From: Acidobacteriota bacterium
GTDB lineage: Bacteria; Acidobacteriota; Terriglobia; Acidiferrales; UBA7541
DNA: 49,040 nucleotides
Direction: 5' to 3'
Assembly: GCA_003224235.1 (NCBI GenBank)
Contig: QHYU01000147.1
Location: 1-49,040, forward strand
Positions 1 through 33,783 of the stretch are shown here, one piece after another. The position numbers and the translations under genes are program-made. Below the pieces are notes generated by a model. That model had not been told where the DNA came from, did not search any database, and worked only from the letters and a program-made list of their open reading frames with translations. The stretch's first letter is position 1. The number at the start of each line of letters is the position of its first letter.

Positions 1-226
1 TCCAACGGCCGGTTGCGCCTGACCGTTGCGTTAAGAGGATTTATCCGAGCGGTCGTTAACCTCCAAGGGCGCGCCCGCCTCCTATGTTGAGTGTGATGAG
101 ACTCGGGGTCTCCGCCGGGCCTGTGAATCTCCCGGCGTGAGGCCGGATTCGTGGCCCCACCTTCTTGGCAAAAGGCTGCATCAATCCGTCTCAAAACGGA
201 AACACGGGCAGAGATGAGAATCCGCT
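1..226. other. Non-coding left edge of window
   Basis: No recognisable gene is seen. An open plus-strand frame from base 1 ends at a TGA near base 110, but it is not recognisable and could be the tail of a gene cut by the window edge. No tRNA or integrase sequence was seen here. Confidence 0.3.
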
Positions 227-1117
227 TCAGCGCCTGGGCAGTTGAAAAACGAGACTGATGGTCGTTTCGGCCTCAATTGGATTTCCGCCTAACGTCGCAG
301 GCTTGTACCGCGACTGCAGTACTGCTTCCATTGCCGCGTCGACAAGCAGCGGATGACCTTGGACAACATCCACTTTCTTCACTTTTCCTTCCCTGTCGAC
401 AATAGCCCGAAGCACAACAACTCCTTCGATGTGCTGCACCTTCGCCGCTATGGGATACTCCGGAGAAACCTGATGAATGAGCGCGAGCGGCTGAATGAAA
501 TGCCCCTTCTCGAAAACACCAGGACCCGCCCCTTCTTCCCAGTTCCAAAAAGGCCATGCCCCCACCCCGATGAAGCGGAATGCTCCTTTTTCATAGACAA
601 ACGTCTCTTCCCAGGAACCTACATCCTTGCCCTTGAGTTGGATTGCAAATCCGAATCGGGCAAGCGACAACTCACGCAGGGGGCGAACCGCGCTGAGCTT
701 GTACACTTGCCGAATCCGCGTGGGCTCCCGCGGCTCATCCTTGTGACGGACCACAAGCCCTGAGCCTTCAGTCTTGCAGACGTCTTGGATGGTTTTCTCT
801 AGAGAACCGGCATACTTCGAGAATAGGCGGTCGTAGCGCTCAGCGAGCTTGGCAGCCTCACCCGCATCGAAGTTCTGTGCAAACCATGCCTCGGAATCGG
901 GAAGCCTGAATTGCTGGAGCAGTCGCTCTCCCGCGGCTGCGTCTCCGGAGCGATGCGCTTGGACGACCGCGTTGAGCTGCGCTCGAAAACCATCATCGGA
1001 CTCGGAGAAAGTGGACGCCGTCTGGGCATTTGCCTGCGGCGTGGGATTCTCGGCACGCCCGATGGACACCGGTGCGGCTATTAATACGCCTATAAGAATC
1101 GCGCGCAGGTTCCCCAT
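227..1117 (-). CDS. Exported protein with TonB C-terminal domain
   Basis: The last 90 or so residues form a TonB C-terminal domain, with the typical 'P-x-YP' entry (SPEYPIAAKV), the V-x-G-x-V strand region and the 'YKPA' segment near the end. The chosen start gives 296 residues: it begins MGNLRAIL, has a hydrophobic signal sequence of about 20 residues, and is preceded by GGAGG a few bases upstream. A longer frame reaches base 1246 but adds 43 residues that do not look like a protein start. There is no proline-rich linker and no membrane anchor after the signal, so it is probably a soluble periplasmic protein and not a classical energy-transducing TonB. The middle region is not recognised. 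It is divergent from the next gene. Confidence 0.75.
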   Translation of the reverse strand: MGNLRAILIGVLIAAPVSIGRAENPTPQANAQTASTFSESDDGFRAQLNAVVQAHRSGDAAAGERLLQQFRLPDSEAWFAQNFDAGEAAKLAERYDRLFSKYAGSLEKTIQDVCKTEGSGLVVRHKDEPREPTRIRQVYKLSAVRPLRELSLARFGFAIQLKGKDVGSWEETFVYEKGAFRFIGVGAWPFWNWEEGAGPGVFEKGHFIQPLALIHQVSPEYPIAAKVQHIEGVVVLRAIVDREGKVKKVDVVQGHPLLVDAAMEAVLQSRYKPATLGGNPIEAETTISLVFQLPRR

Positions 1118-1514
1118 GCGACCTCCATCACTTCCTGAGTCAACGACGAATCGTAGCAAACTCACGCTGTTCATTACATACCTTATCATTGTGAATGGCA
1201 CGCTCCCAACTAGCCGGGAACTCCACAAAGTCGTGCAATGCGCCACTGCCCATCCGGTGCGCGATATAGGATCATCAGGTACTGTGTTGTCCCTGGATCA
1301 TAGCCTTCGCGACGGGGTCAGCAATGGCCACTCGGCGGGAATCAATACGGTCGCTCCGGACGCCCCCAGACCTCTAGGCCGAAAGGCAACCTTTTCGGCT
1401 CACCTGGCCCTTGCCGCCGTTATCCGAACGCTCGCATTTCCTCGACGAGGCGTAGCTAGCGATGTTGTAGAATGCGCGAGCAGCAAAGCACACACCTAAT
1501 ACGGTAGTCAGCAG
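1118..1514. other. Intergenic region between divergent genes
   Basis: This spacer of about 400 bp separates the TonB-domain gene (minus) from the next small exported protein (plus). It should hold promoters for both, but no convincing -35/-10 pair was found. Open frames crossing it show no protein-like composition. Confidence 0.3.
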
Positions 1515-1979
1515 ATGCCAAGTTCTTCCCGAAGACTCAGCGCTGCACGATTCGTCGTCGCCGGATTAACCACAGCATTTTTGTTGGCGGCAGTCTGGCC
1601 CATTACTTCTCCTGCCACTCCGCATTGGGAAGTCTGGGTTGTGGACGAGAATGGGCATGCGCTACAAGGAATGACCGTTCGGCTAGTCTGGGAAAACTAT
1701 TCAGCAGAAAGTGAGTCCCATGAACAGGACTTGCGAACAGACGAGAACGGATATGTCGTTTTCCCCGCTCGGACGTTCAAGGCATCCGCACTGCGACGGC
1801 TCTTCGGAACAATACGGGCCGCCCGAGGTGGTGTTCATGCCAGCTTCGGGCCGCACGCATATGTATTCGCCTTTGGGCGAGGACTTGAGGGAGACGCAGT
1901 AGCGCACGGCTACATCACAGATTGGACCGGCAAACCCGACGAGATGCAGTCACGAATAGTCGCGGGGGCCAAAAGGTAA
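1515..1979 (+). CDS. Small exported protein, unknown function
   Basis: The 154-residue product has a basic N-terminus and a hydrophobic stretch (about residues 12-30) ending in small residues, which fits a signal peptide. The following part (WEVWVVDENGHALQGMTVRL, then TDENGYVVFPARTF) reads like the two strand regions of a carboxypeptidase-regulatory-like or transthyretin-like beta-sandwich. That fold is common in surface and periplasmic proteins. No catalytic motif is seen. The neighbours give no functional hint. The family assignment is tentative. Confidence 0.55.
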   Translation: MPSSSRRLSAARFVVAGLTTAFLLAAVWPITSPATPHWEVWVVDENGHALQGMTVRLVWENYSAESESHEQDLRTDENGYVVFPARTFKASALRRLFGTIRAARGGVHASFGPHAYVFAFGRGLEGDAVAHGYITDWTGKPDEMQSRIVAGAKR

Positions 1980-2506
1980 CCCTTCTGGCAGGACCTGACG
2001 GACCACTTGATTGATCCAATCGATGTAAGGCGGGCTGGGTGGTGGCCCGAGGCTACTTGTCGCGAGCACTCTTAGCTTCTGGAGGGAAAGCGGAAAACTC
2101 GGCTTGCCAGTAGATCTATCAAAACCTTCGTGACCGCTTTCCGCTGCTTCGGCTTAGGCTCAAGGTCGTCCAGCATTAGGTGGCACGCCCTGACGCACTC
2201 ATTGCAGATGTACGCACGCCCGCGTCCGCCGCAACCACGGGCGGCTTCCTTCTAACGGCTTTATCGAACGCGCGCAGAGCATCGCGCCTCCCTAAACGAC
2301 TTCGCCAAACGCGCGTCCGATAAAGCACTAGCGTGATTGTGAAATGATTCGAAATGGAATCTTTTCCGCTCAGTTTCCGGATAGCCGACTATGTGGATTG
2401 GCAGCCTGTTGACTTGACACTAGGTGTGACTTAACATCCGCGCGAATAGGGGAGGCGTGGAAGCAATTAGATTGAACTTATACTCGCTACCCTACATTTC
2501 GGGTTC
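1980..2506. other. Long intergenic region upstream of ABC exporter genes
   Basis: About 530 bp without an intact gene. On the minus strand it holds a broken zinc-finger fragment (2072-2251, listed separately). A TATACT box at 2479-2484, 23 bp before the ABC ATPase start, could be a -10 element, but no good -35 partner is seen. Confidence 0.35.
2072..2251 (-). pseudogene. Remnant of a ClpX-type C4 zinc-finger protein
   Basis: The minus-strand frame reads AYICNECVRAC followed by about 35 residues to a TAA stop at 2072-2074. YICNECV is the hallmark second half of the ClpX-type C4 zinc finger. The first Cys pair and any ATG, GTG or TTG start are missing: the frame is closed by a TAG at 2252-2254. 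The preceding bases encode residues like the expected finger (VAADAGVR) only in a neighbouring frame, so a frameshift is likely. No AAA+ ATPase part follows. The source could have been a small stand-alone zinc-finger protein or a clpX fragment. Confidence 0.45.
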
Positions 2507-3256
2507 GTGAACACCATGCGCATACGTTTAACAGGGCTCAACAAACGCTATGGCAAGGTCCATGCGCTCAAGAATGCGTCACTGACGGTTGAACCTGGGC
2601 AGATCGTTTCTGTGCTGGGTCCAAACGGAGCCGGGAAGACGACCCTGCTGCGCTGCCTTGCAGGTATTGTCGGAGCTACATCAGGAGACATTTTCTTCGA
2701 TGAGGAGCGCTTCACGCGCGGCAACATGAGTCTGCGGCGGCGAATAACTTTCCTACCCGATTTCCCCATCGCGTTTCCTCACAACACAGTCCTTCGACAC
2801 GTCGGGATGGTTCTGAGGCTGTACGAGGCGGATCAGCCAAGTGTTGAAACCCGGGTTATGGAGTTATTGCGCGGATTCGACCTGATGCCTCTCATCGACA
2901 CGCCAATGGCACAGCTTTCGCGCGGTCAAGCGTATAAGGCCGCCTTGGCAGCGTTGATTGCAACGGATTCCGAGGTCCTGCTGCTGGACGAGCCATTTGC
3001 GTCTGGCATGGACCCTAACGGCATCACGTTTCTGAAACGTGAGGCGCGCGAAGCCGCCAGGCGCGGCCACACTGTGATTTATTCCACGCAGATTCTGGAT
3101 ATAGCCGAGAAGCTTTCGGACCGTGTATGCGTGATCGACCGGGGAGAAATCCGGCACTATGCCCCGCTAGCTGAGCTCCCTGGCGTGGTTGCGGGGCATG
3201 CGAATGGAGGCGTGCTTGAAGGGTTGTTTCAGCAGTTGCGGGAGAGTGCACAGTGA
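2507..3256 (+). CDS. ABC transporter ATP-binding protein
   Basis: The 249-residue cytoplasmic ATPase subunit probably powers the membrane protein encoded directly after it. Walker A is GPNGAGKT at residues 38-45, the signature is LSRGQ at 137-141, and Walker B is VLLLDEP at 157-163 with a D-loop (SGMDP). The Q-loop position reads FLPDFP and the H-loop position reads IYSTQ, so the usual Gln and His are replaced by Asp 85 and Gln 195. The GTG at 2507 or the ATG at 2516 could be the start; neither has a clear Shine-Dalgarno site. The substrate cannot be told from sequence. Confidence 0.85.
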   Translation: MNTMRIRLTGLNKRYGKVHALKNASLTVEPGQIVSVLGPNGAGKTTLLRCLAGIVGATSGDIFFDEERFTRGNMSLRRRITFLPDFPIAFPHNTVLRHVGMVLRLYEADQPSVETRVMELLRGFDLMPLIDTPMAQLSRGQAYKAALAALIATDSEVLLLDEPFASGMDPNGITFLKREAREAARRGHTVIYSTQILDIAEKLSDRVCVIDRGEIRHYAPLAELPGVVAGHANGGVLEGLFQQLRESAQ

Positions 3257-4923
3257 TTCTCGGATCGCCAGCGCTTGAACGCCGGTTGCGGAAAGAAGCC
3301 AAGCGTGAGATGCGCTCCGACAGGGCGCTATGGAGGGACTACCGACGGCACCGCACCGTATGGCTGAGGCGCAAACTGCGCGCGAACGGTCGCGTCGCCC
3401 TGCTCTTTGTGTATTTCATCTTTCTTGAACAGATGGTTGTGCGCGGTGGCGGGCTTGCGTTGCTTGGCGTGGCGATTTACGCATCGGCCACAACGCTGTT
3501 CCGGGCTTTCACGTTTCGCGCAAACGTTCTGCAAGGTTACGATCGCACCGTCCTCCTCCATTTGCCGATATCTGATGAGGAATTCTTCACGCATGAGTGG
3601 AACGGCTTTGTTTTTTCATGGAGCCGCGCCTTTGTTTTGTTCTTCATCGCATACGAGGCAACATTGTTCGGTTCCGGGCTGACCGGGAAGCAATTGGCAG
3701 TGGCGGCCCTTGCGGCAGCACTCCAGAGCCTATGCGGGTTGTCTGTTGCCTCGTGGCTGATTGCGTACGTTCGCAAAGCCAAGGTCGGACTTGCATCAAC
3801 GGCTTTATACATTCTGATCCTCGTCTGCTTATGGGTACCGGCCGCTTCAATCCGGTATTTGTGGTCGGCTGTGCTGATTACCCCCGGGGGATGGGTTTCG
3901 CATGGCTTTGCGGGCCTGACGGGCTCCGCGCCTAGCCGTGAGACTTTCTGGCTCGTGCCCGCATTTGCAGTTGCGATCTTGTTGCCTTTTGCTTACGGAG
4001 CATTGCGACGTCGAATGCTGGTGGAACTCACATCCCAGACGTCAGGCGAATCAGTGGGGCTCGACGAATTGCTGGCGGAACGAGAACCCGATGTAGAGGA
4101 ACTGCCAGGACAAGTTAAACCGTTGGATCCTGATGCTGCGATCTGGCAGGGTCACTTTTTGCAAGGCGCCGATTGGGCTCGCTCAGGGTGGCTAGAGAAG
4201 GTTGCAGTGCGATGGTTCACTTCGCGTGAAAAGACAATCGCCGAATTTATGCTCGGTGACCAGCTTGGAGCATGGTCAAAGAGGTGGGGCACGGCAGCAT
4301 TGATTTCAGGGCTGGGCATTATCTTGACGTTCGCCTTACAACCGCTTCCATCGTGGGTTTTGTTCCTGCCGATTGTTGCGGGGGGAATGTGTGGAGCACC
4401 ACTATTCGGCGGGTTCTGGTTGGGATTCAACGGAGCTCCCGCGTCAGGACAGCTGATGCCCGCATATGCGAGTTTTCCGATCAGTTACGCAGAGATTTCC
4501 CGCGTAATGTTCAAGAGCAATGCAATTCGGATTCTGGCATGGACTCCACTCGCGTTGGCATATGCCACTGCGCTGGCCGTCCGCATGGGGCATTCGGCTG
4601 CATACGGAGTGACAATCGGAATTGAGATTGTCGTAATCGTTGTGGCCGTTCAACCGGCCATGGTTGTGGGGCATTTTTCCGTGGGGTCGAATGACACGAA
4701 ACAGATCAATTGGCCGACGCTGTCCTATTTCGGCTTAGCGCTGATTCTCTTTGTCATTGTGATAGCTGCGAGCATCGCTCTTTTCGAGGTAGAGGCTCTG
4801 GAGATGAAAGTGCTCGCTGCCCTTGCGCTCGGCGTCGTCAACGTAGTCGGGTGGGTTGGCTATAGGCTCTTGTTTAATAGCGGCGCCATGGATCTGCTGC
4901 GCCTCGAAGAAAGCGAGTTCTGA
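3253..4923 (+). CDS. Putative ABC-2-type transporter membrane subunit
   Basis: This 556-residue protein has a basic N-terminus followed by several hydrophobic segments in two clusters (about residues 45-250 and 345-550), separated by a hydrophilic acidic stretch (about 258-335). That layout suits an ABC-2-type exporter permease, although no family-specific motif was recognised. Its GTG start overlaps the stop of the ATPase gene by 4 bp (GTGA), which strongly suggests a coupled two-gene exporter. A hairpin right after the stop may end the transcript. Substrate unknown. Confidence 0.7.
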   Translation: MILGSPALERRLRKEAKREMRSDRALWRDYRRHRTVWLRRKLRANGRVALLFVYFIFLEQMVVRGGGLALLGVAIYASATTLFRAFTFRANVLQGYDRTVLLHLPISDEEFFTHEWNGFVFSWSRAFVLFFIAYEATLFGSGLTGKQLAVAALAAALQSLCGLSVASWLIAYVRKAKVGLASTALYILILVCLWVPAASIRYLWSAVLITPGGWVSHGFAGLTGSAPSRETFWLVPAFAVAILLPFAYGALRRRMLVELTSQTSGESVGLDELLAEREPDVEELPGQVKPLDPDAAIWQGHFLQGADWARSGWLEKVAVRWFTSREKTIAEFMLGDQLGAWSKRWGTAALISGLGIILTFALQPLPSWVLFLPIVAGGMCGAPLFGGFWLGFNGAPASGQLMPAYASFPISYAEISRVMFKSNAIRILAWTPLALAYATALAVRMGHSAAYGVTIGIEIVVIVVAVQPAMVVGHFSVGSNDTKQINWPTLSYFGLALILFVIVIAASIALFEVEALEMKVLAALALGVVNVVGWVGYRLLFNSGAMDLLRLEESEF

Positions 4924-4935
4924 CTGACGAGACCA

Positions 4936-4967
4936 AGGGGCACGGCTGAACCGTGCCCCTCGGATTT
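4936..4967 (+). terminator. Hairpin terminator candidate after ABC exporter operon
   Basis: A perfect 10-bp stem (AGGGGCACGG at 4936-4945 pairing with CCGTGCCCCT at 4951-4960) with a CTGAA loop lies 13 bp past the stop codon. The following T-stretch is weak (cggatttgt), so it may be an imperfect intrinsic terminator or a dispersed repeat. Confidence 0.55.
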
Positions 4968-4977
4968 GTCGGCTGTA

Positions 4978-5122
4978 GTGGTTTCGCTGCGAGCCGTCAT
5001 ACCGCCCGGTCATCATGCAGCATTTGTTGGAATTTGCGCCCGGAGCCACAGGGACACGGGTCATTCCGGCCCAGTTTCTCAAAGAGCTCTTTATCCCCGT
5101 GCACAACGCGGAAATCCGCGTT
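4978..5122 (-). pseudogene. Frameshifted SEC-C motif protein fragment
   Basis: Read on the minus strand, one frame gives [20 protein letters not shown] and then GRKFQ, the first part of a SEC-C zinc-binding motif (CxC pair). The expected continuation, KCC plus [10 protein letters not shown], lies in a different frame directly after. The Cys-rich motif is therefore split by a frameshift. No start codon with a ribosome site lies upstream; a GTG at 5102-5104 is possible. It looks like the decayed C-terminal end of a SEC-C (SecA-tail-like) protein. A sequencing error could give the same picture. Confidence 0.5.
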
Positions 5123-5136
5123 AGAAGGAGAAAGGC

Positions 5137-6246
5137 ATGAAGGCCGCAATCATCCTTTTAGTCTCGGGCCTGCTGACCGCGTTGGCATTCTACTTGGTGT
5201 GGATGAACAGGGCATCGGAGAAAATCCTCACTGCGGTCATCCCAGTTGCGGTCGCGGGCCTAGCTGGCGTCTTTATTGCGGTATTCGTGTTTGGCGGTGA
5301 ACCAGCCATCACAGCAGTATTTCCTTCCAGTTTCCAATATCGTCTCGCGAGCAAAATGCCTGCTAATCTTCCATGGCTTTTGATGAGTCGCAGGTTCACC
5401 CCATCTCAGTTTGCTCCGGCGCGGCTCTATAAGGTTCATCCGGAGTTCTTCACTGACCCCTCTGATAAGGATGGGGCAACGCTGTACCACCACTTACTAC
5501 AGCGAGCAATCATCGACTGGATGGGGATGTTGTACAGCGGAACTTGGCAGTTGGAGATCCTGCAATTCGAACTACCTAGTGGCCACGAAGGGCGCTTTCA
5601 GCCTGCAGAAGGTGCATCCAAAAAGTCAGAGACACTCTCAACTGAACAAGTAGAGAGCCTATTGAAGGGAAACAAGTTTGCCGATATGCGTGCTGGGATA
5701 CGTCCACAGATCACACTGCCCCCAGGCACCAAAATGAAGATAACTCCACCGCAGACCAGGGCTGGCGCCCTCGAAACCGGTGAGATCCTTCTCGAAAATA
5801 AGTTTTGCAGCATCTCGATTAAGACCCAAGCCTCTTCCTGGTTTGCCGGGATAGGTGCCTACAAACAGCTCGCAGGGATCAATGATGAAGAGAACAACGG
5901 GCTCGCGACCGCGAACTACATTGTCAGAATCAACGTTCGGTTCGACCGCTTGCGCAGTAGCCACCCCCAAATGGCCCTGTATAAGACTTGGGCGTCCGAG
6001 CTCTCTGTTGGGCTTAGAAAGCAATTCGACGAACAAGTGATCTGGTCGAAGACTAAGGACGATTTCGTCTTTTCGCAACTGAAGGGACAATTCGGTGAGC
6101 AGCCCCCGCTACACCAGACCACGGTATCTTCTGAGGGTATAACAGACCATACTTTGACCGGGGGCGTTGCGCCCGACAAGCCGTCCTCCCAGTCAGTGCA
6201 TGGTCACGCCAAAGTGAGTTCGCGAGAGAACAAACCCAAAGAATAG
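5137..6246 (+). CDS. Membrane-anchored protein, unknown function
   Basis: The 369-residue product starts with two hydrophobic helices (about residues 3-22 and 31-52), followed by a hydrophilic domain of about 310 residues that should lie on one side of the membrane. A clear ribosome site (AGAAGGAG) precedes the ATG. No domain was recognised in the soluble part. Codons are richer in A/T at third positions than in the core genes further right, consistent with acquired DNA. It stands alone: the next intact gene is over 600 bp away and on the other strand. Confidence 0.65.
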
Positions 6247-6862
6247 ATGGAAGTTGAGAGGGGGAATTCCCTTTCCACTCGAAATTGCTTGCCGATGGTT
6301 CCAGGCGTCCCGAGCGAATCGGAGCCGATGACACCCTAATCAGAAACTACAGCCTCGGTGCGTCGAAACCATGTGGTTTCGGCAGGCCACATGATAAACA
6401 CGCCTCACAGGTGAAATCAGAGACTTACGCGCTGAGTTTCGTAAACCCTTTAGACAATCCGCTGATCTACACAACCTAAGTCTGACCTTAGTCTGCGACT
6501 TCCGAATGGGGGCTCTAATGCTTGACACCATGCCCGCCCCGGAGTAGGTTGCGTCCAGATTCCGGTTGGACGGTCTGTCTTTCTGGTGGCGACTCGCAAT
6601 GACCATACGCTTGATCTGTTAAGACCATCCGAAACTGTTACCTGTTTGTCTGATCTCGCGAGCCAAAGTTACGATGCCTACGTCTTAAAAACGGTATCAA
6701 ATGGGCCTGGGCTGAGTATCCTGCAAGCGGCAGAAGCAGTAGGCGTTCCAGCCATCAACAACTCACGATCGATCAGTTTTGGGGTTGTCCCCTGGGGTGA
6801 GACAAACGGTTAAGATCCACAGATTCGGCTTTGCTCGCTGTAACCCTGAGCAAGATTGGGGG
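6247..6862. other. Long spacer with gene debris
   Basis: About 600 bp without an intact gene. It holds a perfect inverted repeat (CGAAACCA-TG-TGGTTTCG, 6364-6381) and a truncated ATP-grasp-like fragment at 6586-6813, listed separately. Nothing else is recognisable. Confidence 0.35.
6586..6813 (+). pseudogene. Truncated N-terminal fragment resembling ATP-grasp ligases
   Basis: The 75-residue frame contains YDAYVLKTVSNGPGLSILQA followed by AEAVGVPAINNSRSI. This resembles the pre-ATP-grasp region of RimK/LysX-like ligases and inositol-phosphate-kinase-like proteins, where a 'YVLK' strand precedes a helix and a 'GVPxxN' strand. The frame stops shortly after the point where the ATP-grasp domain should begin, and no continuation is seen in other frames. 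It is therefore probably a decayed gene. The homology is from memory of the fold and is uncertain. Confidence 0.35.
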
Positions 6863-7465
6863 TCACTTCTTGCGCGCTCGGCGCTGCGCGTAGTCTCGTC
6901 GAGATTGTCGATGGGCGGAAGGAGCAGGCTCCCGTTGCTTGAGAAATCGTGCCATCCGAACCCGCTGCGCGCACGAGTCACTACAATAAATTTGCTTCGG
7001 ACGCTGAAACAGGAAGAGTCTCCGGCATCCCTCGCGCTGGCACACGTGCAGCCAAGGCGCGACCTCGGTCAAGAGCTCAAAGACTCGCGTAAAGAAGAGA
7101 TGACGGGGGTCGCGGGATCCGGTCCGGGCAACCCGGCCATGGAGCTGATCCCAGACGATCCCGTCTTGGAACGTCTCCACGTTGGTGATGTCGATTGCGA
7201 GTGCAGGGCGAATGAATGGCTTCCTATCCCGTAAATCGTCGAGGCCTTCACGTAGCGCGTTCACAATCCGCTCCGCCCGATTCGCCTTGAGAAAGAAGCC
7301 CCAGCGAGGTACCTGCCTACCGGGTTCCCGGACCGCTAGAAACTTGTTGACGAGCTCAACCTGGGACTTAGTGTCAAGCGTCTGGCCCCTGTCGTAGAGC
7401 TCCATGAGCAAGTCGAACCCCATCTGTGCGTCGGTCTTCGGGCGGGGTGCCTTTCCTGAGGTCAT
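6863..7465 (-). CDS. CGNR-type zinc-finger protein
   Basis: The 200-residue product ends in a CGNR-like zinc finger: C142-x4-C147, then C161-x3-C165, followed by AQRVRMARFL. The CSDSCAQR sequence is a variant of the CGN-R pattern, and a basic tail follows. Such proteins are thought to bind DNA and act as transcription regulators. The N-terminal part corresponds in position to the ABATE-type region but is not clearly recognisable. The ATG is preceded by AAGGGAAGC. A promoter candidate lies just upstream (7486-7515). The target is unknown. Confidence 0.7.
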   Translation of the reverse strand: MTSGKAPRPKTDAQMGFDLLMELYDRGQTLDTKSQVELVNKFLAVREPGRQVPRWGFFLKANRAERIVNALREGLDDLRDRKPFIRPALAIDITNVETFQDGIVWDQLHGRVARTGSRDPRHLFFTRVFELLTEVAPWLHVCQREGCRRLFLFQRPKQIYCSDSCAQRVRMARFLKQREPAPSAHRQSRRDYAQRRARKK

Positions 7466-7485
7466 GCTTCCCTTGCGCTAGAGAT

Positions 7486-7515
7486 CACATATCACGGGGC
7501 TCAGAATGAAGTCAA
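7486..7515 (-). promoter_or_regulatory. Promoter candidate for the CGNR protein gene
   Basis: On the minus strand TTGACT and TATGTG are separated by 18 bp, about 20 bp before the start codon of the CGNR gene. It was matched by eye to the sigma-70 consensus. Confidence 0.35.
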
Positions 7516-7755
7516 CGCCGAAAATGGAGTTTGAGACGTTAACGGTGAAAATACATATTAAGATACTGTTTGCCGTTCGCGGGAATTGAATTGTACAGCG
7601 AAGGCGCTATCCTGCAAGATGCGCGCCGGCTGGTGAAGCGGAGGCGGGCTCTGCGGGAGCGCAACCCGCCAAGGAATAGCCAACTGGAAAATCATCAAAC
7701 CGATGAGACCCCGGGCGGTCCTCCGACGGCCGCCCCGGCACGCGCACCTGATGTT

Positions 7756-8262
7756 CTATCCGGCTCTTCTGGCCTTGGTGGGTACCAGTCCGTGGCCTCC
7801 CACGGGCTCGGTCACTGCGCTGTTGCCGAAGCTCGCGATCAGTGGTTTGCCCCGAACTATGGCCCGCTGCACAGAAGGAAGCGATAGCGAAGCCCGATGG
7901 CTCTGCTCGCTATCCCAGACTTCCGTAATCCAGATTGCGTTGGCGTCAGCTGGATCCTTTGCGACCACGTAACTTAGGCAGCCGGGCATGTCGGATATGC
8001 CCTCAAGCAAGATCGAGATCAGTGCTTCACGCTGTCCCGGCACAGCGACCATTTTGCCAATTAGTCCGTACATTTTCTTCTCTCTCGCTGTCAGTGGATT
8101 ATTGCCGGTAGTCAAGCTGGACAGCGCTGCTGAACCGGCCATCACAATGAAGTCGCGTCGCCCGATCCGAGCCTCAACACCGGAATTGCCTTTCGGTTGG
8201 GCGCAGCGGTGCGAGCAATCCCTGCTTCCTCCAATGCCATGAAACAAAAACAACATACTCAA
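7756..8262 (-). CDS. Tat-exported antibiotic biosynthesis monooxygenase (ABM) domain protein
   Basis: The C-terminal part (about residues 64-150) reads as an ABM-fold domain: MYGLIGKMVAVPGQREAL, then GCLSYVVAKDP, then an 'IWITEVWDSEQSH' strand-helix. These small dimeric alpha/beta-barrel proteins are often quinone or heme-degrading monooxygenases, but most have unknown substrates. Upstream is a twin-arginine signal (RRDFIVMAGSAA at about residues 35-46), so the protein is probably exported folded. The n-region before the twin Arg is unusually long, and the true start is uncertain (ATG at 8262 or 8256). Confidence 0.7.
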   Translation of the reverse strand: MSMLFLFHGIGGSRDCSHRCAQPKGNSGVEARIGRRDFIVMAGSAALSSLTTGNNPLTAREKKMYGLIGKMVAVPGQREALISILLEGISDMPGCLSYVVAKDPADANAIWITEVWDSEQSHRASLSLPSVQRAIVRGKPLIASFGNSAVTEPVGGHGLVPTKARRAG

Positions 8263-8380
8263 TGCTGGAAGGAAATCGCTAAGCGAAAAGTTTGCATGCC
8301 TCTTCCCGGCCCAGGCGTGTGGGGCATTGCAGAGCTGTTGTCGCGCAGTCCGCGGTTACGGAAAACCTGAGAAACGGTTG

Positions 8381-9214
8381 TTAATCGGCGCCGGCGGCCT
8401 GCGACCATTCGCGCTTGGCGGGGCGAAGTGTAAGCCAGTCGGTTCGTACTTTATCCCATCCCTGTATCAGAAAGCCGTACGACTCGAAGAACTCGCGGAT
8501 TCGGGGTCGCTCCCAGCCTACAATTTTCTCCAGGATAGGCACAAGTATGGCCAGCGAATTGGCGCTTAGCACGGTTCGTTTTGCGATCTGGGTGACATCT
8601 TTAGTCTCCGAAACCGCGATGGTGAAGCCGTCGCGCACATTCACGTGCAGCATCACGTGGATATCGGAACTGCCGTCGCCAACATAAATGATTTGGTCCG
8701 GGCCGATCTGCAAAGTTGTTTGCAGCTCATCGAGTACGGCGACCTTCCCGTAACCGGCAGTGGCCCGATCGATGGTCTCGATCTCCCCAGAAGCGGTGAA
8801 ACGAAACTGAGTTCCGTAGATATGATCGACGGGTATGATCCCTTCTAACGCCGATTGAATAACCTCGACCGGAGCAGCAGAGAGAACATAAAAATCGAAA
8901 TGATAGCCGTCGATGCCGTGGTCGAGAATCTCGTTTAGGAGTTCAATGTTCTCCTTAAGGCGAATGCGCTTTCCGACTTCGTATAGGTGTTCTCTGCGAA
9001 CCCGAGAGTGGAATTCGGGATCATGCAACAACAGGTAGGCCAGTTCAGCGCCCTGCTGGACTAGGTTGAGTCTGGCCATACCGGCCGCTTTGCGCTCAAA
9101 TTCCTCGGTCGGAATACCGAGCAATTCGCTCAAAACATAGCCCGAATCATTGAAGCTTAATGTCCGGTCAAAGTCGCTGGCGAACAGGTAGTGCTTTTGA
9201 GACTTATCGCTCAT
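8381..9214 (-). CDS. HAD-superfamily phosphatase
   Basis: The 277-residue cytoplasmic protein has all HAD motifs: DFDRTL (nucleophile Asp 14, general acid Asp 16), a Ser in the YVLSAAP strand, a later Lys in the GYGK region, and GDGSSD for Mg2+ binding. The layout, with a helical cap between motifs I and II, is like phosphoserine phosphatase-type HAD enzymes. The substrate cannot be named. A strong ribosome site (GAGGGAGG) lies 7 bp before the ATG. It is flanked by spacers and appears to be transcribed alone. Confidence 0.85.
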
Positions 9215-9600
9215 GTCTGTACCTCCCTCAGGTTGCGACCACGGATCTCTTCCTCGATCGGTTAAACCACCTTTCGAACGCCGAGGTAGAAGTCACCCCG
9301 CTTGGCCAGGAACAAAATCAAATGAACTAGCAAGCGGAGCCTTGGGACGTTGGCGGGGGGTCCGTCCTCACCCACTAGTGGCACAGGTTTCCTTTATCAG
9401 CTCGGCCAGGTTCCCGAGGCGCAAGCTCGGACTCCTGCTTCGGCGTATTTATTCTAGGTGCGTTCTGCCTTGAACGCAAATTCAAAGTTTGATTGGAACG
9501 AATCCGCAGAAACTTGAATAGATTTTGTTGACGCTGTCACTGTTATTTCGAGAGCATAAACCTCACTCGCCACGGCGATTATTCTTTCCGCAACAGCCTC
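9215..9600. other. Intergenic region between HAD gene and toxin gene
   Basis: About 390 bp with no gene recognised. The stretch 9475-9560 is clearly more A/T-rich than its surroundings. The upstream signals of the HAD gene must lie at its left side. Confidence 0.3.
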
Positions 9601-10122
9601 TTAGAGGCTTTCCTCTTGAAAATTGACTGCCCTGGAGCTCAGCACAATTGGAGGACCTGGCAGCTTGTCGAGGAAAACGACAAGGTTCTTCGACCGAGGA
9701 GCGGCAGCAGACGGCACTAATAGAGCTTGGTAGCTACGCCTCCGTGCTTCGGCCGCGATCTCGCGCGTTGCATGCACTTCGCTAGCGGTAAGAGCATCTC
9801 TTTGCATCCCAGCCTTCTGAAGGACATCCGAGTCTGTCAAATCGAGAACCGTTTCGATCTTCACTTCCAGTTCGTAAATCCACCAAGCACCTGATGGGAA
9901 TTGCGCCGGATCAACCCCGCGTTGTCTCAGGCCTCTTGCCACCTCCTTGGTGGCGGTTGCCGCGTCGAGTGAGGTATAAAGCGCGCCGAATTCGCTTGCC
10001 GGATTGAAGCGGCCAGCGGCTTTCAGGCTGGCTACTGTTGCCAAGGGGTCCAAGCCTTCACGGACAACCCGGTAAACTATGGCAGACAGACGAATCTCTG
10101 GAAGGTCTGGAGGGAGGACCAA
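9601..10122 (-). CDS. RES-domain toxin (NAD+ phosphorylase/ADP-ribosyltransferase-like)
   Basis: The 173-residue protein matches the RES family: an early 'YRVV' Arg, GRFNP, 'ALYTSLDAATATKEVAR' with the conserved Tyr and Glu, and VPSAA near the end. Characterised RES toxins paired with Xre/DUF2384 antitoxins degrade NAD+ or ADP-ribosylate metabolic enzymes. The start is a TTG that directly abuts the antitoxin's TAA (TAATTG), so translation is probably coupled to the antitoxin. It lies downstream of the antitoxin, the usual order for this class. Activity is inferred from the family. Confidence 0.85.
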   Translation of the reverse strand: MVLPPDLPEIRLSAIVYRVVREGLDPLATVASLKAAGRFNPASEFGALYTSLDAATATKEVARGLRQRGVDPAQFPSGAWWIYELEVKIETVLDLTDSDVLQKAGMQRDALTASEVHATREIAAEARRRSYQALLVPSAAAPRSKNLVVFLDKLPGPPIVLSSRAVNFQEESL

Positions 10123-10749
10123 TTAGACGTAGACTCCCTCTTGAACGGCCTGGAGGTCCGCTGTGACTCGGTCGAACTCTCCTCGGATCAGCAGATCGAT
10201 CGGCTTCTCGCCGCCGAGGTTCGGGTTGGAATGGTACAAGTAGCTTCGCATGGCCTCCGTATTTGGCAGGGCTTGCTCGAGCAACGCTGCGATCTCAAGA
10301 AGTCCATCCAATTTTGGGTTTCGCCTGGGGCGCGTACCCTTAAGCCAACGATGCGCAGTTCGGGCGGAAACATTCAAGATTCGACTGAAAACCTCTTGAG
10401 ACACTCCCAGAAGCCGGACGACTTGGGAAAGACTTGGCGAGCGGCTACGACGAGTGGCCTTAAGGGTACCCAGACTGTTCAACTGTTTGAGTAGAGTCGT
10501 GGGCTGGATTTTGGAATCGAAGCATATGACCACCGGCACTCGATGTGACTGGCGCAGCACTTCGAGCACCTCTCTCCCGTCGACACGAGGCATGCTGAGA
10601 TCCATCAACACGATATCCGGCCTCTCTTCTTTCACCTTCTCAAGATCTCTTAAGGACCGAATGGCCCGCACTTGGGCGAATCGCGCAAGGACCCCTTCCG
10701 CCGGAGGGTGCGTACCTTCTCCTTTCAGGGCGACAGCACGTACTGCCAT
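10123..10749 (-). CDS. MbcA/ParS/Xre-type antitoxin with N-terminal receiver-like domain
   Basis: The C-terminal half is a DUF2384-class antitoxin: an Xre-like helix-turn-helix (about residues 105-140, SARTAHRWLKG) and the toxin-binding tail (GGEKPIDLLIRGEFDRVTAD, about 179-198). The N-terminal 95 residues resemble a response-regulator receiver: PDIVLMDLSMPRVDG with Asp 50 at the phospho-acceptor site, then VPVVICFDS. The acidic pair at the end of strand 1 and the last strand and helix are missing. The chosen ATG has GAGGAG six bases upstream; a frame extending to 10779 is less likely. At 208 residues it is longer than usual antitoxins of this family (about 150, from general knowledge). Confidence 0.85.
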   Translation of the reverse strand: MAVRAVALKGEGTHPPAEGVLARFAQVRAIRSLRDLEKVKEERPDIVLMDLSMPRVDGREVLEVLRQSHRVPVVICFDSKIQPTTLLKQLNSLGTLKATRRSRSPSLSQVVRLLGVSQEVFSRILNVSARTAHRWLKGTRPRRNPKLDGLLEIAALLEQALPNTEAMRSYLYHSNPNLGGEKPIDLLIRGEFDRVTADLQAVQEGVYV

Positions 10750-10785
10750 GCGTCTCTCCTCGCCTAGGACTTTATGCACAAGCAG

Positions 10786-10828
10786 AATATATGCAAAGCT
10801 CCGCTTATGTCAAGACAATGTCTAGACA
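10786..10828 (-). promoter_or_regulatory. Promoter with overlapping palindromic operator candidate for the toxin-antitoxin operon
   Basis: On the minus strand a near-consensus promoter is visible: TTGACA (10808-10813) and TATATT (10786-10791) spaced by 16 bp, about 37 bp before the antitoxin ATG. Just upstream of the -35 box lie overlapping inverted repeats, AGACA-A-TGTCT (10814-10824) and the perfect palindrome TGTCTAGACA (10819-10828). Antitoxins with an Xre domain commonly repress their own operon, so these palindromes are the likely binding site. Binding is inferred. Confidence 0.65.
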
Positions 10829-10863
10829 CACTTGCTGCGCGCCAACCAGGACAAAGGAGATAC

Positions 10864-10919
10864 ACTCAGGGTCTAGTGGCCGCAAGGCCGTGGGGTTTCG
10901 AGTCCTCTCACGGGCCCCA
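10864..10919 (+). other. 3' fragment of a tRNA-Leu (CAG) gene, probable attachment-site scar
   Basis: The sequence starts at the anticodon loop (CTCAGGG, anticodon CAG), then shows the 3' anticodon stem TCTAG, a class II variable arm (GGCC-GCAA-GGCC), a T-arm with TTCGAGT, the acceptor 3' strand CACGGGC and an encoded CCA. The 5' half of the tRNA is absent: the preceding bases do not pair with it. The T-arm has an extra T and imperfect pairs. Integrative elements that enter tRNA genes leave such 3' copies at their far end. An intact tRNA-Leu in the same orientation would be expected to the left of the window. Confidence 0.55.
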
Positions 10920-11127
10920 TAGATTCCAATGGGTTTCTGCATTTTGTGGTTCGTGGCGACGTCGAAGCCAAGAGACTAACCCAACTGTTTCGCCTCGGTA
11001 GCCGCGACGGCAGCAGCGTAGGTGTTGTAACTCCTGGGGAGAGATGCTTCCACCGGCGTGCTGCGATGAATCGGCTCTACGGCTGTGGTAGAGTACACGC
11101 GCGTCACGGCCAGATCCGCACCCTAAG
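10920..11127. other. Spacer upstream of amino-acid permease gene
   Basis: This stretch lies between the tRNA fragment and the first core gene. It should contain the permease promoter, but no convincing -35/-10 pair was found. Confidence 0.3.
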
Positions 11128-12549
11128 ATGTTCTCCACCGAGAACCACACTTCCCCTCGACCCAACCCTGTCCGGCCCAGGCTGGCGCGGCAATTGGGAC
11201 TGTTCCACGCCACGATGGTGGTGATGGGGGGAATCATCGGCGCAGGCATTTTCATCAATCCTTCGGTTGTTGCGCGACAGGTGCACACCCCGACGCTGAT
11301 TCTGGGAGTTTGGGTTCTCGGCGGACTGATCGCGCTTGCGGGAGCGTTCATTTACGCCGAGCTGGCGGCCCGGCTTCCGCTGGTGGGCGGCGATTACGCT
11401 TATCTCCGCGAGGCATATCATCCGGTTGTTGCTTTCCTGAACGGCTGGGCGCTGCTGCTGGTGATGCAGACCGGGGGCATGGCGGCCGTGGCGGTAACTT
11501 TCGCGCGCTATTTTGTCGAGCTCACCGGGGCACGCTGGTCCGATCACGTGGTCGCCACAGCCGCGCTTGCCCTCCTCACCGTCGTGAACTGCATGGGCGT
11601 ACGCGCCGGAGGCACAGTACAGAGTACTCTGATGGTGATAAAAATCGGAGTGATTGCCGGGCTGGTTTTCTGCGGCTGGCTGCTGGTGCGCGCGCCGGAG
11701 CCGACAGCACACCGCATGCTGGATCGCGCGGTGTCGTTTGATCTGTGGACGGCGGTTGGCGCGGCGATGGTGCCGGTGGTGTTTGCCTACGGCGGGTGGC
11801 AAACGGCAAACTTCATTGCTGGGGAGGTGCGCGAGCCGCGGAGAAATCTGCCTCGCGGTTTGCTGATCGGCGTATGCAGCGTAGTTGCGCTCTACTTGGC
11901 GGTTAATTTCGTATGCGTGCGCGCGCTGGGTGCCGCCGGGCTGGCCGGGACCTACACTCCTGCATCGGAAGTGATGCGGTTGGCCCTGGGCCGGCGCGGG
12001 GGAACGCTGATCGCCTTCGGAATTGCCGTGTCCACGCTGGGCTTTTTGAGCCAGAACATCCTCACCGCGCCACGGGTCTATTTCGCGATGGCCGAAGATG
12101 GGTTGTTTTTCCGCAGCGTCGCCTGGCTCAGCCCGCGCACCCAGGTTCCCGTAGTGGCCATCGCGCTGCAAGGTGTGCTGGCCATCGTGATGGCGCTCTC
12201 CGGCCGCTACGAGCAGATCCTGAACTATGTGATTTCTGTGGACTGGGTTTTCTTCGGTCTCGGCGCATCGTGCCTGTTCATATTTCGCCATCGCGAAGCG
12301 CGCGGCCGCCTGGTTCGGGCAGAACAGAGAACACCGGGCTCGGATTCGGGAGGAGATTCAGTGGAGTACCTTGTCCCGGGCCATCCGGTCACCACGGCGC
12401 TATTTGTGGCCGCGTGCGCGCTAATCGTGGCCAACACCCTGTATAAGTATCCGTTGAACGCGGCGATTGGTTTGGCCATTGTCTTGGCCGGCATCCCCGT
12501 CTATTTCGTGTGGCGGCGTCGCCAGCCGCCGCAAGCAAGCGCGCCATGA
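11128..12549 (+). CDS. APC-superfamily amino acid permease
   Basis: The 473-residue inner-membrane protein has about 12 hydrophobic segments. The first one carries the APC-family motif GGIIGAGIF, which forms the substrate site in transporters such as LAT/AdiC-like exchangers, and 'YAELAARLPLVGGDYAYLREA' follows, typical of the family. It probably imports or exchanges an amino acid or polyamine; the substrate cannot be told. Its stop overlaps the ATG of the aminotransferase gene (ATGA), so transport and amino-acid breakdown may be linked. It is the first gene to the right of the probable island boundary. Confidence 0.88.
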   Translation: MFSTENHTSPRPNPVRPRLARQLGLFHATMVVMGGIIGAGIFINPSVVARQVHTPTLILGVWVLGGLIALAGAFIYAELAARLPLVGGDYAYLREAYHPVVAFLNGWALLLVMQTGGMAAVAVTFARYFVELTGARWSDHVVATAALALLTVVNCMGVRAGGTVQSTLMVIKIGVIAGLVFCGWLLVRAPEPTAHRMLDRAVSFDLWTAVGAAMVPVVFAYGGWQTANFIAGEVREPRRNLPRGLLIGVCSVVALYLAVNFVCVRALGAAGLAGTYTPASEVMRLALGRRGGTLIAFGIAVSTLGFLSQNILTAPRVYFAMAEDGLFFRSVAWLSPRTQVPVVAIALQGVLAIVMALSGRYEQILNYVISVDWVFFGLGASCLFIFRHREARGRLVRAEQRTPGSDSGGDSVEYLVPGHPVTTALFVAACALIVANTLYKYPLNAAIGLAIVLAGIPVYFVWRRRQPPQASAP

Positions 12550-13637
12550 GCCGCCCGCGGCGCGAGATTCGTTCCGCTTACATGGAATGGGCCAAGAGGC
12601 GCTCGCATGCGCGGCTCAACCTCGCCACGAGCGGGCTGGCCAATTTCCCGCTGGCGAAGCTCCCGGTCTGTTTGGAAGACCTCGAGCTCAGCGGGCCGAG
12701 CCACTACGGCTACGAACCGCTGCAGCGCCGGCTGGCTGTCCGGTGCGGCGTCAAGCCCGAGTGCGTGGTCGCAGCCACAGGAACCTCGATGGCCAATCAC
12801 CTGGCCATGGCCGTCCTGCTCAACTCCGGCGACGAAATCTTGATCGAGCACCCCACTTACGAGCTTCTTCTGAATGTGGCCGAATATCTAGGCGCACAGA
12901 TCCACAGGTTTTCGCGGCGCTTTGAGGATAACTTTGCCGTCGAACCGCGCGAGATTGAACGCGCGGTAACACCACGCACGCGGCTGATCATCCTCACCAA
13001 CTTGCACAATCCCAGCGGCGTGTTGACCGAGGACAGCGTTCTGCAGCAGGTCGGCGAAATCGCGCGAAGCGCCGGCGCGCGCGTCCTGGTGGATGAAGTG
13101 TACTTGGATGCGGCCTTTACCCGCGCGCCACGCTCGGCCTTTCATCTGGGAGAACACTTCGTCGTCACCAGCAGCCTGACCAAGGTTTACGGGCTGAGCG
13201 GCCTGCGTTGCGGGTGGGTTCTGGCCGCGCCGGATCTGGCCGAGCGGATGTGGCGGCTGAACGATCTATTTGGCGTAGCCGCGGCGCATCCGGCGGAGCG
13301 GCTGAGCGTAGTTGCCCTCGACCACCTGGATGAAATCGCCGCGCACGCGCGAGCGCTGCTGGAAACCAACCGCGCGCTGCTCAAGCGGTTTCTCGACTCG
13401 CGCGACGACCTCCGCGCCGTCTGGCCTGAAGCGGGGACCATCGTGTTTCCTCGGCTGCGGCGCGGCACCGTGGACTCCTTGTGCGCGCGGCTGCAAGAGA
13501 TTTACGAGACTTGCGTTGTACCCGGCACATTCTTCGAGATGCCCGAGCACTTCCGCATCGGCATTGGGGGCGACACCGAGATGGTCGCCGAGGGTCTCGA
13601 GCGGCTGGCCGCCGCGCTCGACGCAGGCCCGTCTTAG
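12546..13637 (+). CDS. PLP-dependent aminotransferase, class I/II
   Basis: The 363-residue fold-type I enzyme shows the expected active-site elements: NLHNPSGV (Asn contacting PLP), VDEVYLD (Asp and Tyr near the cofactor ring) and SSLTKVYGLSGLRCGW with the Schiff-base Lys. The true start is the ATG overlapping the permease stop; an upstream in-frame start at 12510 would add 12 residues inside the permease gene. The likely reaction is transfer of an amino group between an amino acid and a 2-oxo acid. The amino-acid substrate is unknown, but may be the one carried by the neighbouring permease. Confidence 0.88.
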   Translation: MSRPRREIRSAYMEWAKRRSHARLNLATSGLANFPLAKLPVCLEDLELSGPSHYGYEPLQRRLAVRCGVKPECVVAATGTSMANHLAMAVLLNSGDEILIEHPTYELLLNVAEYLGAQIHRFSRRFEDNFAVEPREIERAVTPRTRLIILTNLHNPSGVLTEDSVLQQVGEIARSAGARVLVDEVYLDAAFTRAPRSAFHLGEHFVVTSSLTKVYGLSGLRCGWVLAAPDLAERMWRLNDLFGVAAAHPAERLSVVALDHLDEIAAHARALLETNRALLKRFLDSRDDLRAVWPEAGTIVFPRLRRGTVDSLCARLQEIYETCVVPGTFFEMPEHFRIGIGGDTEMVAEGLERLAAALDAGPS

Positions 13638-13729
13638 CGGAGAACGGAGCCCCCCTCCCTGCCTTTTACAAATCTTCGTTTGCTCATCGGTGTTCATCTG
13701 TGGTTACACCTCTTGCCTTTTGCGGCCGT

Positions 13730-13758
13730 TTGCTCGGCGCGGCGCAGCGACGTATAAT
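13730..13758 (+). promoter_or_regulatory. Promoter candidate for the uvrA operon
   Basis: TTGCTC (13730-13735) and a perfect TATAAT (13753-13758) are spaced by 17 bp, 52 bp before the uvrA ATG. No LexA-type palindrome was noticed next to it. Confidence 0.6.
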
Positions 13759-32866: not shown

Positions 32867-33783
32867 TGCAGCCGGATTCTGGGGTCCGCCAGAGCGTAGA
32901 TGAAATCGGTCAGCAAATTAACGACGACATAAGAGAAAGCAATCACCAGGATGCAGCCCTGGAGCAGCGGATAGTCTCGCGCCTGGATGGCCTGCACGGT
33001 GAGCCGTCCGATGCCCGGCCAGGAGAAGATTGTCTCGGTGACGATGGTGCCGGCGAGCAGGGTGCCAAACTGCAAGCCGAGAATCGTGACGATGGGAATC
33101 AGGGCGTTGCGAAAGGCGTGGCGGAACAGCACAGCCGACTCCGGTAGACCCTTCGCGCGCGCCGTGCGCACGTAGTCGCTCGAAAGCTCTTCAATCATCG
33201 AGCTGCGCACCGTGCGGGTAAGGATGGCCGCCAAGGCGGCGCCCAGGGTGATGCCGGGCAGAACCAAACTGGCCCCGCCTTCCTTGCCCGAGACGGGAAG
33301 CCAGCCCAATTGAATCGAGAAGAGAAGAATCAATACAGGACCCAAGGCAAAGTTGGGCACCGAAAGGCCTAGCAGGGTAAAGAATCCCACTGCGCGGTCT
33401 GCAGCATGGCCGCGGCGATGTGCAGCGAGAACACCCGCGGGGATGCCAATTGCGGCGCAAATTAGCAAGCCGGTCAGGGCCAGCGTAATGGTCGCCGGGT
33501 AGCGTTCGAGGACAACCCGCAATACTGGCGTCTGGAAGCGGAATGACTGTCCCCAATTCCCACGCAGCAGACCGGCTAGGTAGCGGCCATACTGCACATG
33601 CAGGGGCAAATCAAGACCCAGGGCGCGGTGAAGCCGCTCCATATCCTCGGCGCGAGCGCCTTCGCCGAGCATCTGCTGCACAGGATCGCCGGGAACGATG
33701 TGCACCAAGAGAAAAACCATGGTGAGAATTAGCCAGAGCGCGGGAAGAGTGAAGAGAAAGCGGAGAAGGAGATGACGGATCAT
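32863..33783 (-). CDS. Peptide/nickel-type ABC transporter permease (DppB/OppB family)
   Basis: The 306-residue protein starts with a membrane helix and FLLVHIVPGDPVQQMLGEGA, typical of DppB/OppB, and has the EAA loop (SSDYVRTARAKGLPESAVLF) and about six helices. It pairs with the DppC-like protein encoded downstream. Its start overlaps the stop of the preceding CorC/HlyC-type gene by 4 bp, so all three are probably translated from one message. Confidence 0.92.
   Translation of the reverse strand: MIRHLLLRFLFTLPALWLILTMVFLLVHIVPGDPVQQMLGEGARAEDMERLHRALGLDLPLHVQYGRYLAGLLRGNWGQSFRFQTPVLRVVLERYPATITLALTGLLICAAIGIPAGVLAAHRRGHAADRAVGFFTLLGLSVPNFALGPVLILLFSIQLGWLPVSGKEGGASLVLPGITLGAALAAILTRTVRSSMIEELSSDYVRTARAKGLPESAVLFRHAFRNALIPIVTILGLQFGTLLAGTIVTETIFSWPGIGRLTVQAIQARDYPLLQGCILVIAFSYVVVNLLTDFIYALADPRIRLQ

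Follow-up and report, generated by a model that had tools for sequence, protein, structure and literature searches.

A decayed 3' half of tRNA-Leu(CAG) in a soil acidobacterium, best explained as the orphaned scar of an old integration

The window analysed here, which is the whole of contig C139 (49,040 nucleotides) in the 237-contig, 4.57-Mb draft genome of a soil acidobacterium, carries at 10866-10919 of its forward strand the 3' half of a tRNA-Leu(CAG) gene whose 5' half is missing from this locus. The best-supported explanation, and a somewhat probable one, is that this half is a decayed attR-type scar, which an old integration at the anticodon loop left behind and a later rearrangement orphaned.

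The half matches nucleotides 34-87 of the intact tRNA-Leu(CAG) of its own genome at 47 of 54 positions without gaps, whereas the best ungapped match to these 54 nucleotides in 60 shuffled windows was 31/54. The intact gene (contig C170, 11206-11292) was recovered with an E-value of 5e-12 in a genome-wide search; it is the only intact copy that we found in the genome, and no further tRNA-Leu halves rose above background on C170 or C139. Homology begins at T33, the base before the anticodon in the anticodon loop, and ends in the encoded CCA at 10919. A reading of the sequence alone had described a tRNA-Leu(CAG) from the anticodon loop to the CCA without its 5' half, and this identification is borne out by the match; of the span it gave (10864-10919), the right end stands, and the left end lies two bases outside the homology. 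Slightly better agreement (48/54) was found with the intact tRNA-Leu(CAG) of G037, G025, G013 and other genomes. No tRNA-Leu(CAG) match was found in the congener G001, whose assembly is about 80% complete.

Several features indicate that the half has decayed. The G53-C61 pair is nearly universal in tRNAs, and in the half a T replaces G at position 53, so that the pair reads as broken; the discriminator base is C. For both reasons the fragment could hardly function even if a 5' half were supplied, and its sequence is that of a dead fragment, lacking a complete cloverleaf both as a half gene and through the broken pair. Neither ARAGORN nor Rfam called a tRNA in the window, as is expected of a half gene. 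The variable arm reads GGCC..GGCC, compared with GCCC..GGGC in the intact gene of the same genome, and is closer to that of other tRNAs in the family; the half is therefore no recent duplicate of that intact gene.

Elements integrated at the same tRNA gene are present in relatives. In G057, of the same family, the intact tRNA-Leu(CAG) is accompanied by a tyrosine integrase gene (135243-135650, N-terminus missing) and a second 3' half 2.2 kb on (54/54), and in G079, of the same class, by an integrase gene (33273-33731) and a 3' half 6.5 kb on (51/54). In G020 two 3' halves are separated by 4.7 kb, and integrase remnants lie next to the first; the sequence that follows this first half recurs unchanged behind the intact tRNA of another contig, an arrangement as expected of tandem elements. 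The half in the window is likewise a terminal 3' piece from this crossover region, its start at T33 falling within about 5 bases of the points in the anticodon stem-loop at which the matches of the second halves in G057, G079 and G020 begin. It thus has the tRNA and the crossover region in common with the G057 and G079 elements, but these keep an integrase gene (truncated in G057) and near-perfect halves, and it has neither. One of the two large Islander classes is marked by an anticodon-loop crossover that displaces a 3' fragment; 2083 of 3919 islands are anticodon-centred and 3760 of 3919 have a 3' fragment (PMC4383910). The remnant on C139 resembles Islander class A (PMC4383910) in its 3' tDNA fragment running from the anticodon loop to the CCA and in its composition boundary, and differs in having no integrase, in that no cognate intact tRNA is shown at the other end, in its decay and in its rearranged neighbours. 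When the tyrosine recombinases of its own genome were compared with the G079 and G057 integrases, only distant ones were found; some lie beside tRNA-Pro, tRNA-Ala, tRNA-Ser and tRNA-Asp/Val, and none beside tRNA-Leu(CAG). Viral contigs searched with a 28-mer of the fragment and with the G079 integrase gave no match, and no literature was found on tRNA-Leu with an integrase in Acidobacteria.

Table 1. Coordinates of the half and its surroundings in the window
Feature	Position	Strand	Basis or remark
GC-poor accessory block: TonB-C protein, ABC ATPase and putative permease, CGNR zinc finger, ABM, HAD, RES/Xre pair	1..10860	.	55.6% GC
RES-domain toxin	9601..10122	-	Pfam RES 2.3e-18
Antitoxin with receiver-like N-terminus and Xre/MbcA/ParS C-terminus; conserved start near 10749	10123..10779	-	
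Operator/-35-like motif of the toxin-antitoxin operon, conserved (TGTCTAGACATTGTCTTGACA); the conserved cassette reaches upstream to here	10808..10828	-	8-operon alignment
Decayed 3' half of tRNA-Leu(CAG), T33 to CCA, att-like remnant	10866..10919	+	47/54 to the C170 copy
APC amino-acid permease, relocated in comparison with relatives; GC like that of the host	11128..12549	+	
PLP aminotransferase-like partner of the permease	12510..13637	+	conserved pair in relatives; function inferred
Synteny break between aminotransferase and uvrA	13660..13730	.	G001 alignment begins at 13728
uvrA, first gene of a conserved chromosomal segment	13730..16693	+	NCBIfam UvrA; synteny in relatives

The half marks a step in composition, a feature that supports but does not define a tDNA-integrated island. 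GC content is 55.6% over 1-10860, 63.4% over 10920-13660 and 62.4% over 13730-49040, and a maximum-likelihood fit over the first 20 kb puts the change point at 10990, with a 3-log-unit interval (10817-11441) that takes in the half. A simple ORF count gives a coding density of 75% on the left and 92% on the right. Because the left side is both less dense and GC-poor, the edge at the half is real. The sequence-only reading had placed accessory DNA on the left and core genes on the right; the step in GC and density agrees with this, whereas the right side is not undisturbed core, as synteny is kept only from about 13.7 kb. The left block (1-10860) contains no integrase or phage structural genes, and a DNA search found none of its genes in G001; no tandem repeats were found in the left part of the window.

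The sequence-only reading had also put broken genes and a toxin-antitoxin pair on the left, and in one detail this does not hold: the pair is intact, and the fused antitoxin is full-length elsewhere too; seven other genomes have full-length homologues of both toxin and antitoxin, and in five of the seven, one of them from another family of the class, antitoxin identity is 72-78%. The pair is like RES/Xre type II systems in joining a RES toxin to an Xre/ParS-type antitoxin, and differs from them in the N-terminal half of the antitoxin, which resembles a response-regulator receiver (motif PDIVLMDLSMPRVDG); this fusion is conserved and patchily distributed, with an operator-like motif in common. 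In all eight aligned operons a motif close to TGTCYRGACANTRTCTTGACA stands ahead of the antitoxin, and similarity ends there. The half begins about 37 bp past the operator, a proximity that could suggest that it belongs to the cassette as a transfer scar or an operator, but the eight operons share the operator and nothing beyond it, and a tRNA half is present at none of the seven homologous loci, making this origin very improbable. The cassette was rejected as the carrier of the half on these grounds; judged from the alignment, it is a separate unit of which the tRNA half is no part.

The intact tRNA-Leu(CAG) has kept its old neighbours. About 30 genomes of the family share the block upstream of it on C170, and in eight relatives (G006, G014, G018, G028, G034, G040, G044 and G052) the RNase R gene lies 0.9-5.8 kb downstream; in the genome studied here RNase R is at C170:38240-40876, 26.9 kb downstream of the tRNA. 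The intervening DNA (L104/L105, C170:11293-38000) is about 27 kb of lower-GC sequence (about 58%) with a polysaccharide export and synthesis cluster. GC-poor DNA at the end of C170 (L106, 3372-5460) encodes an Eco29kI-like restriction endonuclease and a DNA methylase.

This locus bears directly on the proposal that the half is the right end of a present-day island with an intact tRNA-Leu and an integrase left of base 1 of the window. A half on the same strand at a GC boundary is in keeping with such an island, and the right end of C170, which is likewise poor in GC and has a restriction-modification pair, would in principle allow C170 to lie before C139. However, a simple integration would have moved RNase R to the right of the half, whereas RNase R is found on C170, after the intact tRNA and before the contig end; the half is therefore unlikely to be the far end of such an integration. 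The intact gene, for which a position 2-200 kb upstream in the same orientation would be expected, sits on another contig with its conserved upstream block and with RNase R kept downstream, and the ends of C170, C114 and C139 share no overlap, nor does the start of C139 occur elsewhere in the genome. The expectation of an integrase beside the intact tRNA was not borne out: no PF00589 match was found on C139 or C170, although an unsequenced gap remains, and none of the genes between tRNA-Leu(CAG) and RNase R is an integrase. For the window itself, this agrees with the earlier remark that no integrase is visible. Nor did comparison with a relative lacking the island succeed: in none of the relatives examined does tRNA-Leu(CAG) adjoin the APC permease, as it would at an empty site. 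A present-day island is improbable.

The right flank, taken on its gene order, is disturbed by relocation of the permease-aminotransferase pair. A divergent metalloenzyme-superfamily gene precedes uvrA at 13 of the 19 relatives' loci examined, that of G001 included (at the remaining six it was not seen, in some since the contig ends), whereas here uvrA is preceded by the aminotransferase and the APC permease (11128-13637). The start of the metalloenzyme gene in this genome forms the end of contig C114, beside a tRNA-Thr and housekeeping-type genes. Synteny running through the junction in relatives had been named as evidence against an island edge; the G001 alignment starts only at 13728, past the half. 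Within the synteny break, 38 bases (13684-13721) have a 92% match in G101 and may be a dispersed repeat involved in rearrangement.

In several relatives the pair clusters with genes for a LysR-type regulator and an HMGL-like synthase, which in this genome are on C233 without the pair. G014 has the pair in the interval from tRNA-Leu(CAG) to RNase R, 2.3 kb from the intact tRNA and in the opposite orientation. The G014 arrangement makes an ancestral link with the tRNA-Leu locus plausible, and in an ancestor tRNA-Leu(CAG) and the pair were probably neighbours. The half next to the pair may accordingly derive from that locus. That the scar and the native permease-aminotransferase genes moved as one unit away from the tRNA locus is a tentative suggestion, on the doubtful side.

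If the half is indeed a scar, a tyrosine-integrase element would have entered tRNA-Leu(CAG) at the anticodon loop. The 3' half that it carried would have restored the tRNA, and the host's original half would have been displaced to the far end. The scar would have stayed at the border between accessory DNA on the left and the permease-aminotransferase DNA of host composition on the right, and the integrase would have been lost. A later rearrangement would then have parted the junction from the tRNA locus and set it before uvrA, the displaced half decaying afterwards. We infer both that the half arose by integration, as opposed to a second tRNA copy having been truncated, and that the later rearrangements took this order. 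A truncated second tRNA gene would appear nearly alike.

Such a gene is the main rival: on this view an entire second tRNA-Leu(CAG) once stood next to the permease-aminotransferase pair, or was carried along with it, and lost its 5' half on arrival of the GC-poor block. The intact tRNA-Leu(CAG) near the pair in G014 fits this account, as does a variable arm that agrees better with other tRNAs of the family than with the genome's own copy. Points against a scar are that no integrase, att partner or empty site was found for the C139 junction, that the orientation of the pair relative to the tRNA is unlike that in G014, and that the genome is a draft in 237 contigs. On the other hand, the half is cut off at the anticodon loop, where the att sites of relatives have their crossover edge, and only one intact tRNA-Leu(CAG) was found in the genome. 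We consider a truncated second gene unlikely, and prefer an integration scar.

An artefact of assembly or binning, in which unrelated DNA was joined at a tRNA-like sequence, also deserves consideration, given a draft of 237 contigs and the behaviour of the left permease. A 495-base piece of this gene (4405-4899) has 98% identity with one end of QHYQ01000462.1, a 3-kb contig of an acidobacterial gp2 genome (G101, probably the same as G029, of another genus in the family, as their contig numbers and positions agree), whose uvrA region is only about 72% identical to that of the window. This disparity fits a recent transfer, and a mis-binned contig is a possible source of the match. However, with 7 of its 54 positions unlike the intact copy, the half is no collapsed repeat; neither of its flanks has a second copy in the DNA examined, and the 181-base stretch around it matches elsewhere in the genome only the tRNA itself. 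Such a join is quite improbable. Two further features concern G101: the 98% match stops abruptly about 24 bases short of the stop codon, and a 117-base sequence at 2218-2334, possibly a small dispersed repeat, has about seven copies there at 76-86% identity.

In summary, the half is ordinary in kind, belongs to a well-known class and is a useful boundary marker. A tRNA half and a GC step are insufficient to infer a present-day island; here, comparison with relatives shifted the synteny break 2.8 kb from the half and placed the intact tRNA in a locus with its old neighbours. If the scar and its neighbour genes did move as one unit, tRNA-half scars can travel, misleading island finders that pair every fragment with an intact tRNA. 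In these soil acidobacteria, tRNA-Leu(CAG) is a recurrent target of integration.
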